Source of the DNA: Paracoccaceae bacterium
GTDB taxonomy: Bacteria > Pseudomonadota > Alphaproteobacteria > Rhodobacterales > Rhodobacteraceae
DNA length: 64,000 bases
Reading direction: 5' to 3'
Assembly (NCBI GenBank): GCA_006226775.1
Contig: SBGD01000076.1
Span: 1-64,000, forward strand
How positions within the stretch are numbered: position 1 is the first letter of the stretch; each line of letters starts with the position of its first letter. Below are positions 2,485 to 40,708 of this stretch, piece by piece. The position numbers were made by a program, and so were the translations under genes. The notes beneath the pieces were generated by a model. That model ran no database searches. It saw only the letters and a list, made by a program, of their open reading frames with translations, and was not told the DNA's origin.

Positions 2485-2571
2485 ACCGTCGCACATCCGA
2501 TCACAGGCGCGTGCGGGGGGATGGGCAATCGCCCCCCGCCGTTGCATCCTTTGCCGAAGGGGGATGCGCGC

Positions 2572-3543
<972 letters not shown>

Positions 3544-3548
3544 GGGGG

Positions 3549-3593
3549 CAAAAATCTTGCAAGATTTTTGACCAAATTCCTTGCAGGAATTTG
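3549..3593. repeat. Twin-palindrome unit 1
   Basis: Two palindromes are separated by 2 bases. The first (3549-3570) is a perfect 22-base palindrome with half-site CAAAAATCTTG. The second (3573-3593) has 9-base arms CAAATTCCT/AGGAATTTG around a 3-base loop. The downstream flank CCCGCC recurs after unit 2. Such a pair could fold into two adjacent hairpins at the end of the DUF3179 mRNA or form a protein-binding site. There is no T tract, so it is not a classical terminator. Confidence 0.8.
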
Positions 3594-3625
3594 CCCGCCG
3601 CCGGGAACCGACCTTCGCGAGGACC

Positions 3626-3668
3626 CGAAATCGTCAACGATTTCGTCAAAATTCATCGATGAATTTTG
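3626..3668. repeat. Twin-palindrome unit 2
   Basis: This is a second pair of palindromes. 3626-3645 has arms CGAAATCGT/ACGATTTCG with a 2-base loop. After 1 base, 3647-3668 is a perfect 22-base palindrome with half-site CAAAATTCATC. The second member resembles the second member of unit 1 and is followed by the same CCCGCC. The format (two roughly 20-base palindromes with a 1-2 base gap) is also that of the units at 38.6 kb, though the sequences differ. Confidence 0.8.
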
Positions 3669-3829
3669 CCCGCCCGGCCCCGCGCGACGCGCCATGAGGC
3701 CGAGGCCGCGCCCCCGCCCGCACCGCCTGCAATGTCAATCCCCAACATATTTTCCACCGCCATTGTGAAGCGCGAAATGCGTGTTAGACTTTTGCTGGGA
3801 CACGGGGTAAACGTGCGTCGAAGGGCTCT

Positions 3830-38133: not shown

Positions 38134-38598
38134 ATGGGGGCGGCCTATTTCTATCACCTGACCCGGCGCCCGCTCGAGGTCACCTTGCCGGTGCTGCTGG
38201 ACAAGGCGCGCGGCGCGGGCTGGCGGGTGGCGGTGCGCGGCGGCGATGCCGGGCGGCTCGACTGGCTGGACGAAAAGCTCTGGCTGGACCCCGAGGACGG
38301 GTTCCTGCCGCATGGACTTGCCGGCGGGCCGCATGATGCGCTGCAGCCGATCCTGCTGACCACCGGGGCGGCGGGCAACGATCCGCAGTGCCTGATGACG
38401 ATCGACGGCGCCGAGGTCTCGCCCGCGGAGGTGCAGGCGCTGGAGCGGGTCTGCGTGCTCTTCGACGGCAACGACCCGCAGGCGGTGGACACCGCGCGCG
38501 GCCAGTGGCGGGCGCTGACCGGCGCGGGCTGTGCGGCGCAATACTGGTCCGAGGAGAGCGGACGCTGGGAGAAGAAGGCCGAAAGCGGCGGCGGCTGA
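38134..38598 (+). CDS. holC: DNA polymerase III chi subunit
   Basis: Chi is a clamp-loader accessory subunit that contacts single-strand binding protein on the lagging strand. The 154-residue protein has the family start MGAAYFYHLTRRPLEVTLPVLLDKARGAGWRV, LDEKLWLDPEDGFLPHG and VCVLFDGNDPQAVDTARGQWRALTGAG. The ATG at 38134 lies 4 bases after the VOC gene. The twin-palindrome repeats begin only a few bases after its stop codon. Confidence 0.92.
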   Translation: MGAAYFYHLTRRPLEVTLPVLLDKARGAGWRVAVRGGDAGRLDWLDEKLWLDPEDGFLPHGLAGGPHDALQPILLTTGAAGNDPQCLMTIDGAEVSPAEVQALERVCVLFDGNDPQAVDTARGQWRALTGAGCAAQYWSEESGRWEKKAESGGG

Positions 38599-38603
38599 GG
38601 GGG

Positions 38604-38645
38604 CCGATTTGTCGACAAATCGGTTTCGATCCATTGATGGATCGA
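38604..38645. repeat. Twin-palindrome unit 3
   Basis: 38604-38623 is a perfect 20-base palindrome (CCGATTTGTC/GACAAATCGG). Two bases later, 38626-38645 has arms TCGATCCAT/ATGGATCGA around a 2-base centre. An almost identical unit lies exactly 110 bases downstream. Unit 3 begins 5 bases after the holC stop codon. Confidence 0.9.
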
Positions 38646-38713
38646 CCCCCGCCTGTGCCGCGCCTCGGTCCAACCCCATCATCTGGAGAACCCGGTTCCG
38701 GTCTGTCGCGCCG

Positions 38714-38755
38714 CCGATTTGTCGACAAATCGGTCTCGATCCATTGATGGATCGA
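38714..38755. repeat. Twin-palindrome unit 4
   Basis: This unit differs from unit 3 only by one base in the 2-base linker (TC instead of TT). The palindromes are at 38714-38733 and 38736-38755. It lies 19 bases past the stop codon of the minus-strand TIM-barrel gene, where it could fold as two hairpins at the end of the sugar-operon transcript. Confidence 0.9.
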
Positions 38756-38774
38756 CCCCCGCCCGAGCCCTGCC

Positions 38775-39833
38775 TCAGTCCAGCCCCATCATCCGGCGAA
38801 TCCGGCCCCGGTCGGTCGCGCCGCCGGCGAAATCGTCGAAGGCCTTGTCGGTCACCTCGATGATATGCGCAGCGATGAAGGGCGCGCCCTCGGCGGCGCC
38901 CTGCTCGGGGGATTTCAGGCAGCATTCCCATTCCAGCACCGCCCAGCTGTCATAGCCGTATTGCGCCAGTTTCGAGAAGATCGCGGCGAAATTCACCTGT
39001 CCGTCGCCCAGCGACCGGAAGCGCCCGGCGCGGGTCAGCCAGCCCTGGTAGCCGGAATAGACCCCCTGGCGGCCATCAGGATTGAACTCGGCATCCTTGA
39101 CGTGAAAGGCGCAGATCCGCTCGTGGTAGATGTCGATGAAGGCCAGGTAGTCCATCTGCTGGAGCAGGAAATGCGAGGGGTCGTAGTTGATCCGGCAGCG
39201 CCGGTGGTCGTTGCACGCCGCGAGGAACATCTCGAAGGTCGCGCCGTCGAAGACATCCTCGCCCGGGTGGATCTCGAAGCCGATGTCGACGCCCTGGTCC
39301 TCGTAGGCGTCGAAGATCGGCCGCCAGCGGCGTGCCAGCTCGCCGAAGGCCTCCTCGATCAGCCCGGCGGGGCGTTGCGGCCAGGGGTAGAGGTAGGGAA
39401 AGGCCAGCGCGCCGGTGAAGCTGACCGTGGTGTCGAGGCCCAGCCTGCGCGCCGCGACGGCGGCCTTCTTGACCTGGTCCACCGCCCAGGCCTGCCGCGC
39501 CGCCGGATTGCCGTGCACCGCTTCGGGGGCAAAGGCATCGAAGGCCGCGTCATAGGCGGGATGGACCGCCACCAACTGGCCTTGCAGGTGGGTCGACAGC
39601 TCGGTGATCTCGACGCCTGCGTCGGCGCAGATGCCCTTGACCTCGTCGCAATAGGTGTCGCTTTCGGCGGCCTTGTCGAGGTCGAACAGCCGGGCATCGA
39701 AGCTGGGGATCTGGACGCCCTTGTAGCCCAGCCCGGCGGCCCATTCGGCCATGGATGTCAGCGAGTTGAACGGCGCGTCATCGCCGGCGAACTGGGCGAG
39801 GAAGATCGCGGGACCTTTGATCAGACCGGGCAT
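38775..39833 (-). CDS. TIM-barrel sugar (phosphate) isomerase/epimerase, terminal gene of sugar operon
   Basis: This 352-residue protein belongs to the xylose-isomerase-like TIM-barrel superfamily (AP endonuclease family 2). Typical metal-site blocks are IGFEIHPGEDVFDGATFE, CRINYDPSHFLLQQMDY and CAFHVKDAEFNPDG. Members isomerise, epimerise, dehydrate or cleave sugars and inositols. It opens GLIKGPAIFLAQFAGDDAPFNSLTSMAEWAAGLGYKG. I chose the ATG at 39833 because AAAGG lies at good spacing. An ATG at 39851 overlaps the preceding stop codon and is possible. It is the last gene of the nine-gene sugar operon. Its 3' end is partly duplicated downstream. Confidence 0.85.
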   Translation of the reverse strand: MPGLIKGPAIFLAQFAGDDAPFNSLTSMAEWAAGLGYKGVQIPSFDARLFDLDKAAESDTYCDEVKGICADAGVEITELSTHLQGQLVAVHPAYDAAFDAFAPEAVHGNPAARQAWAVDQVKKAAVAARRLGLDTTVSFTGALAFPYLYPWPQRPAGLIEEAFGELARRWRPIFDAYEDQGVDIGFEIHPGEDVFDGATFEMFLAACNDHRRCRINYDPSHFLLQQMDYLAFIDIYHERICAFHVKDAEFNPDGRQGVYSGYQGWLTRAGRFRSLGDGQVNFAAIFSKLAQYGYDSWAVLEWECCLKSPEQGAAEGAPFIAAHIIEVTDKAFDDFAGGATDRGRIRRMMGLD

Positions 39834-39847
39834 GGGGGGACCTTTCG

Positions 39848-40708
39848 TCATCGGGGTTCTGGAAAGTAGCGGACAAAGGCGAAGCGGCGGCTGTCGGGCG
39901 CCCAGCTTGGCACGTTGAGCGTGCCCTGGCCGCCGAACAGCGCCACCAGCCGGCGCGAGGCGCCGCCATCGGCGGGCATCAGCCGCAGCTCGACATCGCA
40001 GCCGAAGGGGTGGCCTTGGGTGCCCGGCGGATAGGCCAGGTAGCAGACATGCGCGCCGTCGGGCGAGGGATGGGGGAACCAGTCGACGCTGGCGCCGCGG
40101 GTCATCTCTTGCGGATCGCTGCCGTCGCGGCGCATCCGCCAGAGGTGCATCCCGCCGCCGCGGTCGGAGTTGAACCAGATCCAGCCGCCATCGGGGGTGT
40201 AATCCGGCCCGTCATAGTGATGCGGGCCGGTGATCAGCAGCGTCTCCGCGCCGCCGGTCGCGGGGCAGGTGGCAATGCCGAATTGTTCGTCGCGGCGGCA
40301 GGTATAGGCGATCTCGGCGCCATCGGGCGACCAGCCGTGCCACCAGCTTGGCGCGGTCCTCGTGATCCGGCGCGGCGTGCCGCCCCCGGCGGGCAGGACA
40401 TGGATCAGCGAGGTGCCGCGTCCCGGCGATTGCGAGACTGCCAGGGTGCGGCCATCGGGCGAAAGCCCGTGATCGTTGTTCAGTCGGGTCAGGGGGCCGG
40501 TGTCGATCGGCACCAGCTCCGGCCTGTCCAGCTCCGGCCCGTCCAATTCCGGCCCGTCCAGCGGCAGGCGGTAAAGCCGCCCTTCCGCATTGACGATCAG
40601 CGCGCGGCCGTCCGGCGTCCAGTTGGGCGCCTCGACATGCCGGTCGGTTTCCAGCACCACCCGGGTCTCGCCGGTGACGATATCGACCCATTCCACCGAG
40701 GCCAGCAT
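39848..40708 (-). CDS. TolB-like beta-propeller (PD40) protein
   Basis: This 286-residue protein is built from repeated beta-propeller blades with the TolB/PD40 signature: NWTPDGRALIVNAEG, GLSPDGRTLAVSQSP, GWSPDGAEIAYTCRR, DYTPDGGWIWFNSDR, HPSPDGAHVCYLAYP and SWAPDSRRFAFVRY. It has no signal peptide, unlike TolB, so it is probably cytosolic. Its short length and setting suggest a sugar-binding or enzymatic propeller, as in oligogalacturonate-lyase-like proteins, rather than part of the Tol system. Between the first two blades, three 15-base repeats (about 40513-40557) encode GPELD, GPELD, RPELV. The start at 40708 has GGGAGG upstream. Confidence 0.8.
   Translation of the reverse strand: MLASVEWVDIVTGETRVVLETDRHVEAPNWTPDGRALIVNAEGRLYRLPLDGPELDGPELDRPELVPIDTGPLTRLNNDHGLSPDGRTLAVSQSPGRGTSLIHVLPAGGGTPRRITRTAPSWWHGWSPDGAEIAYTCRRDEQFGIATCPATGGAETLLITGPHHYDGPDYTPDGGWIWFNSDRGGGMHLWRMRRDGSDPQEMTRGASVDWFPHPSPDGAHVCYLAYPPGTQGHPFGCDVELRLMPADGGASRRLVALFGGQGTLNVPSWAPDSRRFAFVRYFPEPR

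Follow-up and report, generated by a model that had tools for sequence, protein, structure and literature searches.

A twin-palindrome unit duplicated with a gene end between holC and a TIM-barrel gene belongs to a dispersed, lineage-specific REP-like family

The duplicated locus between two convergent genes

In the window (the whole 64-kb stretch of DNA that was analysed), the convergent genes holC and a TIM-barrel gene are separated by two copies of a 42-base unit (left, 38604-38645; right, 38714-38755), each with the plan palindrome 20, spacer 2, palindrome 20 and each followed by filler related to the end of the TIM-barrel gene (Table 1). Units and fillers make up ungapped 110-nt direct repeats in tandem, 38603-38712 and 38713-38822, which are identical at 97 of 110 positions (88%). 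A tandem 110-base duplication carrying a 42-base twin-palindrome unit had been proposed in a sequence-only reading of this DNA, and it is borne out by the 13 base differences, now located base by base: 1 lies inside the unit and 12 in the following 68 nt. The earlier count of 1 in 42 for the unit stands; that of 12 in 60 for the gene-derived part becomes 12 in 68 by the boundaries used here. The sole difference within the unit (38625 T, 38735 C) falls in the 2-nt spacer, and the palindromes of the two copies differ at 0 of 40 positions against 12 of 68 in the following part (Fisher p = 0.003; 1/42 against 12/68 for the whole unit, p = 0.016). When up to three mismatches are allowed, the unit pattern occurs twice in the window and not once in 100 shuffles, which excludes chance for the pattern. 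RNA folding predicts two hairpins for each unit, those of the left unit on a GGGGG/CCCCC stem (z -3.55; right unit, z -2.98). No Rfam model matches at its gathering score in the 64-kb window.

Table 1. Positions of the genes, units and fillers in the window
Feature	Position	Strand	Remarks
Twin palindrome with other stems, centres CTTGCAAG and CCTTGCAGG	3549-3593		5 bp after stop of ORF 2521-3543
Twin palindrome with other stems, centres TCAA and TCGA	3626-3668		
holC, DNA polymerase III chi subunit (PF04364), convergent neighbour	38134-38598	+	Stop 5 bp from left unit
Left unit, palindrome 1	38604-38623		CCGATTTG-TCGA-CAAATCGG
Left unit, 2-nt spacer TT	38624-38625		Carries the only difference between the two units
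Left unit, palindrome 2	38626-38645		TCGATCCA-TTGA-TGGATCGA
Left filler, decayed copy of the TIM-barrel gene 3' end and short trailer, stop lost	38646-38713	-	12/68 differ from 38756-38823
Right twin-palindrome unit (20+2+20)	38714-38755		
Filler source, true TIM-barrel gene end and trailer	38756-38823	-	49 bp coding
TIM-barrel gene (PF01261, xylose isomerase-like)	38775-39851	-	Stop codon 19 bp from right unit

The left copy had been said to encode ATDRNRVLQMMGLD against the real ATDRGRIRRMMGLD, and both strings are present in the ORF translations, the latter as the true end of ORF 38775-39851 on the minus strand. The left copy lacks a stop codon, with TCG at 38665-38667 where the right copy has TCA at 38775-38777 (plus-strand letters). 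The right-copy RIRRMMG is closer than the left-copy RVLQMMG to LRRMLG of a relative in the same genus (translated by eye), so the left copy is the drifted one. We picture an original state in which a single unit separated the two convergent genes. A local tandem duplication reaching from the left edge of the unit to 49 bp into the TIM-barrel gene would have produced unit and gene end twice, with the letters GCCG shared at the break (by eye), and the outer gene-end copy, being useless, would then drift.

A dispersed family with a fixed architecture

The unit is not a one-off, as a search at other loci establishes. When the window's own genome (G000; 4.58 Mb, 104 contigs) was searched with 301 nt of the region, at least 43 matches besides the query were found with 40 of 155 candidates scored, each centred on the unit and extending at most 18 nt past it. 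Exact TGTYRACA and CCATYRATGG cores at the unit spacing occur 76 times in this genome (control 0) and GATC-framed palindromes 182 times (control 0); a covariance model gave at least 146 matches among the 150 of 2897 candidates scored, some places being counted on both strands. The pieces of the genome examined (73 islands, 230,775 bases) contain 108 twin units at 77 sites. This count treats each of two triples that share a palindrome (C31:166061, C103:28825) as two units, with that palindrome counted twice; it includes C88:25493, added by hand, and omits two of the 109 twins from the first scan, C93:17111 (judged to match by chance) and C10:5831 (same architecture, other stems). The five intervals between neighbouring units that were viewed for a larger parent element contain ordinary-looking genes and, by eye, no transposase. 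The unit is thus a member of a dispersed, lineage-specific REP-like family built of two unlike palindromes of 20 nt each, TYRA-centred and separated by 2 nt.

The sequence-only reading had also suggested that the element may spread together with host gene ends. The genomic matches lend this no support, as they end within 18 nt of the unit, and neither do the fillers of the other arrays, which are locus-specific; for the gene-derived part of the present locus, no second place was found in the genome among the 40 of 155 candidates scored. The gene end looks like a passenger of a local tandem duplication.

The architecture is nearly invariant. Of the 108 units, 103 have a 2-nt spacer and the other 5 a 3-nt one, an xGTYRACx palindrome is paired with an xATYRATx palindrome, in either order, in 97 of 108 units, and 211 of 216 palindromes have a TYRA centre. 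Only 10 of 1944 outer stem pairs are not Watson-Crick, and pairing is kept in the stem variants (CCGATC, CTGATC, AAAATC, CCGATT, CCGAAT). An alignment of 26 sequences shows two-sided changes in 7 of 16 pairs and one-sided changes in none; its covariation score and its number of pairs changed on both sides exceed those of all 500 shuffles, a control that takes no account of relatedness among the sequences, and the number of further pair types does not rise above the shuffles (448/500 reach it). The unit is flanked by about 7 nt made up largely of G and C, with G prevailing on the left side and C on the right; each of the 7 positions is G or C in 81-97% of the 154 pooled flanks from the 77 sites. 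These flanks show no locus-specific pairing that would extend the stem (158/308 pairs at 4 nt, shuffle mean 161.8), and within the 7 nt the unit edges have no GTAG or CGTC terminal tag in common. The 2-nt spacer is rarely pure G/C (3/103) despite this G/C-rich setting, and it is also more variable than the filler of the arrays.

Two familiar classes were considered and rejected. Ordinary intrinsic terminators carry a T run after the hairpin, and here T makes up only 2-18% per position of the 7 nt after the unit (read as A in the pooled outward flanks). REPINs consist of two inverted copies of one REP, whereas 97 of 108 units pair two different palindromes.

The regular spacing invites a reading at the level of DNA, in which the palindromes are two dyads, 22 bp from centre to centre or about two helical turns, bound by an oligomeric protein with a boundary, nucleoid or gyrase-like role. 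The 2-nt spacer in 103 of 108 units, the triples, which hold a 22-23-nt step (C103, C31:166061 and genome G098), the lack of one-sided changes and the lack of strand bias all agree with it. The stems, however, vary widely without losing their pairing, as would be expected of a hairpin more than of base-specific contacts, and we regard dyads for a DNA-binding protein as a possible but minor contender. ArgR-type tandem operators likewise consist of two palindromes about two helical turns apart and stand at promoters; the twin units differ from them in being mostly at 3' ends and in their variable stems. Three palindromes at 22-nt steps also stand in a series from G098 (L139, 1444-1564) whose centres are TGTCGACA and CGTTGACG.

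Twin palindromes with other stems were also seen. Two with AT-rich stems follow a DUF3179 gene (2521-3543) in the window stretch 3541-3670, the first 5 bp past the TAA and with centres TTGCAA and TTGCA; they can be assigned to the family by architecture only. A strict scan of 400 kb of the source genome away from known units gave 2 other-stem twins, and an 800-kb Markov control for the genus relative gave 3. A looser scan gave 5 in the same 400 kb against 4 in the Markov control and 5 in the window against 0, so only the count in the window stands out; outside the window, such twins were judged by long perfect stems. One of the twins from the 400 kb (L204) carries the family's own cores. Paired long hairpins with TTTYRAAA-like centres occur in the source genome and in a more distant genome of the bacterial family, G210 (L208:2000, L209:12959, L140:1502), in numbers not above chance.

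Uneven divergence in arrays and among relatives

Two or more units lie within 130 bp of each other at 19 of 77 sites, with filler between the units at 17 of these. In the eight arrays that were selected for alignable filler, among them the holC/TIM-barrel locus, variable columns number 5 of 320 in palindromes, 85 of 412 in filler and 10 of 16 in spacers (palindrome against filler, p = 1e-17; palindrome against spacer, 5e-12; spacer against filler, 5e-4). Columns share their history within an array, and these p-values are a guide. The other 9 filler sites were left out; at the 5 of them with a readable order, both units stand in the same order. Uneven divergence had been attributed to homogenisation or replacement of the palindrome unit or to selection on it. 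The uneven divergence is general, and constraint on the palindromes is its best reading; the variable spacers do not favour homogenisation or replacement of whole blocks.

The near-identity of units within arrays is what homogenisation would predict, that is, units converted by one another or replaced and hence younger-looking than the filler. The spacer, however, lies in the middle of the unit and is its most variable part (10 of 16 columns), which favours separate constraint on each palindrome over conversion of the unit as a whole, and arrays retain their own stem variants, such as GCGATC in 4 of 5 units of C51 and CTGATC in C81. Conversion tracts of exactly one 20-nt palindrome may escape the spacer argument; even so, we consider homogenisation very unlikely. 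A different route to perfect palindromes would be hairpin-templated (quasipalindrome) correction in selfish REP-like DNA that has no host function. The near-perfect pairing, the paired changes and the near-absence of intermediates are in keeping with this. Such correction should copy changes as readily as it removes them, so that paired changes should pile up between array copies, and the eight arrays hold 1 (C90); it also leaves the decay seen in the genus relative (below) unexplained. We hold it to be unlikely.

The fillers have mixed sources. At the 17 filler sites, the proposal that units elsewhere are also followed by a copy of the adjacent gene's 3' end holds clearly for the holC/TIM-barrel locus and for C81 (37/50, 0/500 shuffles) and weakly for C18 (1/500 shuffles, among 34 comparisons), and fails at most others. 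C4 (13/500 shuffles) and C52:103797 (6/500, 21 bp) are borderline. Likeness to non-coding flank was found for C19, C39:25878 and C52:103797 (0/500 shuffles each) and weakly for C102 (4/500), and the remaining filler sites, among the 17 multi-unit sites compared, are like neither a coding end nor a flank.

Relatives show both conservation and decay. G003, of the same genus, was sampled over 800 kb (about 15% of its genome), and 16 of the 77 sites could be matched there by a flanking gene, 11 of these by both; at C19, C20:12204 and C102 the two flanking genes stand more than 1 kb apart. By eye, decayed remnants are present at 4 of the 16 (C31:103895, C19:1474, C31:30851, C39:36123), and none was seen at the other 12. 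The latter include the holC/TIM-barrel site, whose counterpart, a relative's locus lacking the unit of the kind that the sequence-only reading had wished to see compared, matches in holC alone and has a different next gene. Target-site duplications are not visible by eye at the empty sites, which are too diverged to place the joint. Twin palindromes in the 800 kb do not exceed the Markov control (2 against 3; looser scan, 1 against 1), and the covariance model finds at least 3 places with 40-46 bits on the better strand among 150 candidates scored. In two further genomes, G001 and G002, the model has no match among the 150 candidates scored per genome.

Across 394 genomes of the bacterial family, the core pattern occurs 101 times in the source genome, 3 times in G262 and once each in 8 others, with 3 in the reversed control; the single matches look like chance, judging by their unpaired stems. 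A survey of 198 family genomes with the covariance model, in which at most 32 candidates were scored in each and which we rate below the core-pattern count, gave matches in G000, G098 and G210. Among named genomes, a scan from which records of the window itself or of very close sequences may be missing found one contig only, from an uncultured Nioella (L048; NCBI: Rhodobacterales, Paracoccaceae), and searches of plasmids, phages and viral contigs, to which the same proviso applies, found no match. Two of the three core places in G262 agree with the Nioella contig, and since places of that contig recur in a member of the same family set, we infer that the source genome is close to Nioella. The Nioella unit lies at the same place as one in the source genome, between transketolase and a small gene, with palindromes identical at 40 of 40 positions, the spacer at 0 of 2, and six 100-bp pieces upstream of the unit at 59-74%. 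Unless the unit entered the same spot twice, comparison of the two sequences would make this a second case of palindromes held while spacer and surroundings drift. At least 5 more twin palindromes with other stems were seen among the Nioella places viewed (L142-L144, L147, L148). The unit is thus intact in Nioella and, in the genus relative, decayed at 4 and absent at 12 of the 16 matched sites. In this lineage, selection seems to maintain each palindrome of the array copies; it seems to do so at the one comparable Nioella site as well, but apparently no longer in G003.

The same genomes bear on the classical REP/REPIN scheme, in which a resident RAYT (Y1 transposase) mobilises the repeats. 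The source genome has one Y1_Tnp gene (C93:70017), at 24.6-24.9 bits just above the cut-off of 23, and in excerpts of PMC3733652 the position and the clusters of the units are common to REPs. That gene is followed, however, by another palindrome pair, starting GTAG (L049 1923-1997, by eye), rather than by the unit; the presence of Y1_Tnp does not follow that of the family, since G003 has 9 matches (some at contig ends) and decayed units, and Nioella G041 has none and intact units; and the unit edges have no common tag. We find mobilisation by a RAYT highly improbable and reject it as the driver, the Y1_Tnp gene of the source genome being followed by a different palindrome pair and the family and the gene not going together. 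The L049 stretch 1423-1997, near C93 70017, reads as a RAYT-like Y1 gene and then GTAGGGTGCGCA..TGCGCACC and their mirror, unlike the twin units.

Position at gene ends and a possible role

Genes were called with a home-made codon-usage caller. Neighbouring genes are convergent at 36 of the 77 sites, co-directional at 34 and divergent at 7, compared with 10, 98 and 32 among 140 other neighbouring pairs in the same pieces and 5, 50 and 32 among the 87 control pairs with gaps of at least 40 bp (convergence, p = 6e-10). The nearest called stop lies 0-15 bp from the outer edge of the unit at 55 of 77 sites and 5-9 bp from it at 40; at the others it is inside or overlaps the unit (4), is further away (11) or is absent (7). 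None of the 77 sites is classed as inside a called gene, and the units show no orientation bias along the transcript (19 against 15).

At C6:20977, C73:8384 and C6:105258, long called genes enter the unit and end inside it, at two of these from both sides. Their TGA is formed by the spacer and the second palindrome; the element thereby supplies the stop codons of these genes and lengthens their proteins by tails such as ADPSMDQS and ADLSTDQD. In the Nioella contig (L048 3401-3739), a small ORF reads through the unit (ADPSMDRIRSVDRS), again with an element-added tail. By eye, the unit stands behind an ordinary terminator at C102, C43:6711, C43:29098, C52:85170 and C49:49297, and at several sites with a distant stop an ordinary terminator lies between stop and unit, with a half-unit at C83 and C19; terminators were judged by eye because an automated finder missed bulged ones.

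Several of these traits are known from REPs. Excerpts of PMC3733652 describe REPs as short dispersed hairpins beside gene 3' ends, mostly between convergent or co-directional genes and, in the two species plotted, less than 20 bp from the gene end at most convergent sites. The same excerpts report that REP clusters repeat in tandem with flanking DNA, that REPs are patchy among species, that sub-families have alternative paired stem bases, that some REPs give the adjoining gene a stop codon, and that stems of the GTAG families often contain G-T pairs (PMC3733652). Like GTAG/CGTC REPs, the 108 units at 77 sites are dispersed, extragenic and of high copy number, with 70 of 77 sites convergent or co-directional and a called stop at a distance of 0-15 bp from 55 of them. 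Unlike them, they are a fixed pair of different symmetric palindromes with TYRA centres, 2 nt apart and without a GTAG/CGTC tag, and one-sided stem changes are almost absent, in contrast to the GTAG families. The twin-unit family is REP-like and of a new make, without the tag or a matching RAYT. In mitochondrial DNA, double-hairpin elements are dispersed units of two adjacent hairpins with paired stem changes; compared by description only, the twin units differ in lying on a bacterial chromosome and in being tied to stop codons. In the open-access literature, with Rhodobacteraceae as the family name, we did not find the architecture described.

In E. coli, excerpts of PMC12306157 state that REPs within 15 nt of a stop codon, a zone said to stall ribosomes, act on translation, and they count 446 of 4,072 in the stop-proximal zone, with 260 of 496 quoted from an older study. 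Twin units share this placement: at 55 of 77 sites a called stop is no more than 15 bp away. The position and the analogy with REPs near stop codons (PMC12306157 and PMC3733652, in excerpts) suggest that a role at transcript ends is likely.

Our main reading, to which we give a probability of roughly 55%, is that the units form paired hairpins at the transcript 3' ends of both converging genes and that the palindromes are under purifying selection after local duplication. At the holC/TIM-barrel locus, each palindrome of both units would be kept as a hairpin or dyad. The hairpins at the 3' end would act as a barrier to 3' exonucleases or as a 3' boundary that affects ribosome or polymerase. We further infer that selection on the palindromes serves a host function. 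Units behind ordinary terminators, the 7 divergent sites and genes ending inside the unit count against a role at transcript ends. The retention of all five copies in one array is hard to explain if one suffices, and zero one-sided pair changes are odd for selection on RNA alone; together with the lack of orientation bias, the missing one-sided changes would suit an element that acts through both strands, or also as DNA.

More speculatively, and with considerable doubt on our part, the TYRA-looped twin hairpins might be the target of a putative dedicated trans-acting factor that would mark, on both strands, where converging genes meet. Its protein would read hairpin shape and loop jointly and would have been kept by the source genome and Nioella and lost by G003, whose elements decayed. 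If true, this 3'-boundary system would differ from terminators, REPs and operators alike. A relative in which such elements decay gives a means of searching for whatever factor lends them their importance. It has long been asked whether the palindromic repeats of bacteria are selfish or useful. The arrays are natural experiments on it, since palindrome, spacer and filler were duplicated together, their divergence is directly comparable, and of the three only the palindromes are conserved. The uneven divergence within these tandem arrays is clean evidence that a dispersed bacterial palindrome is under constraint.
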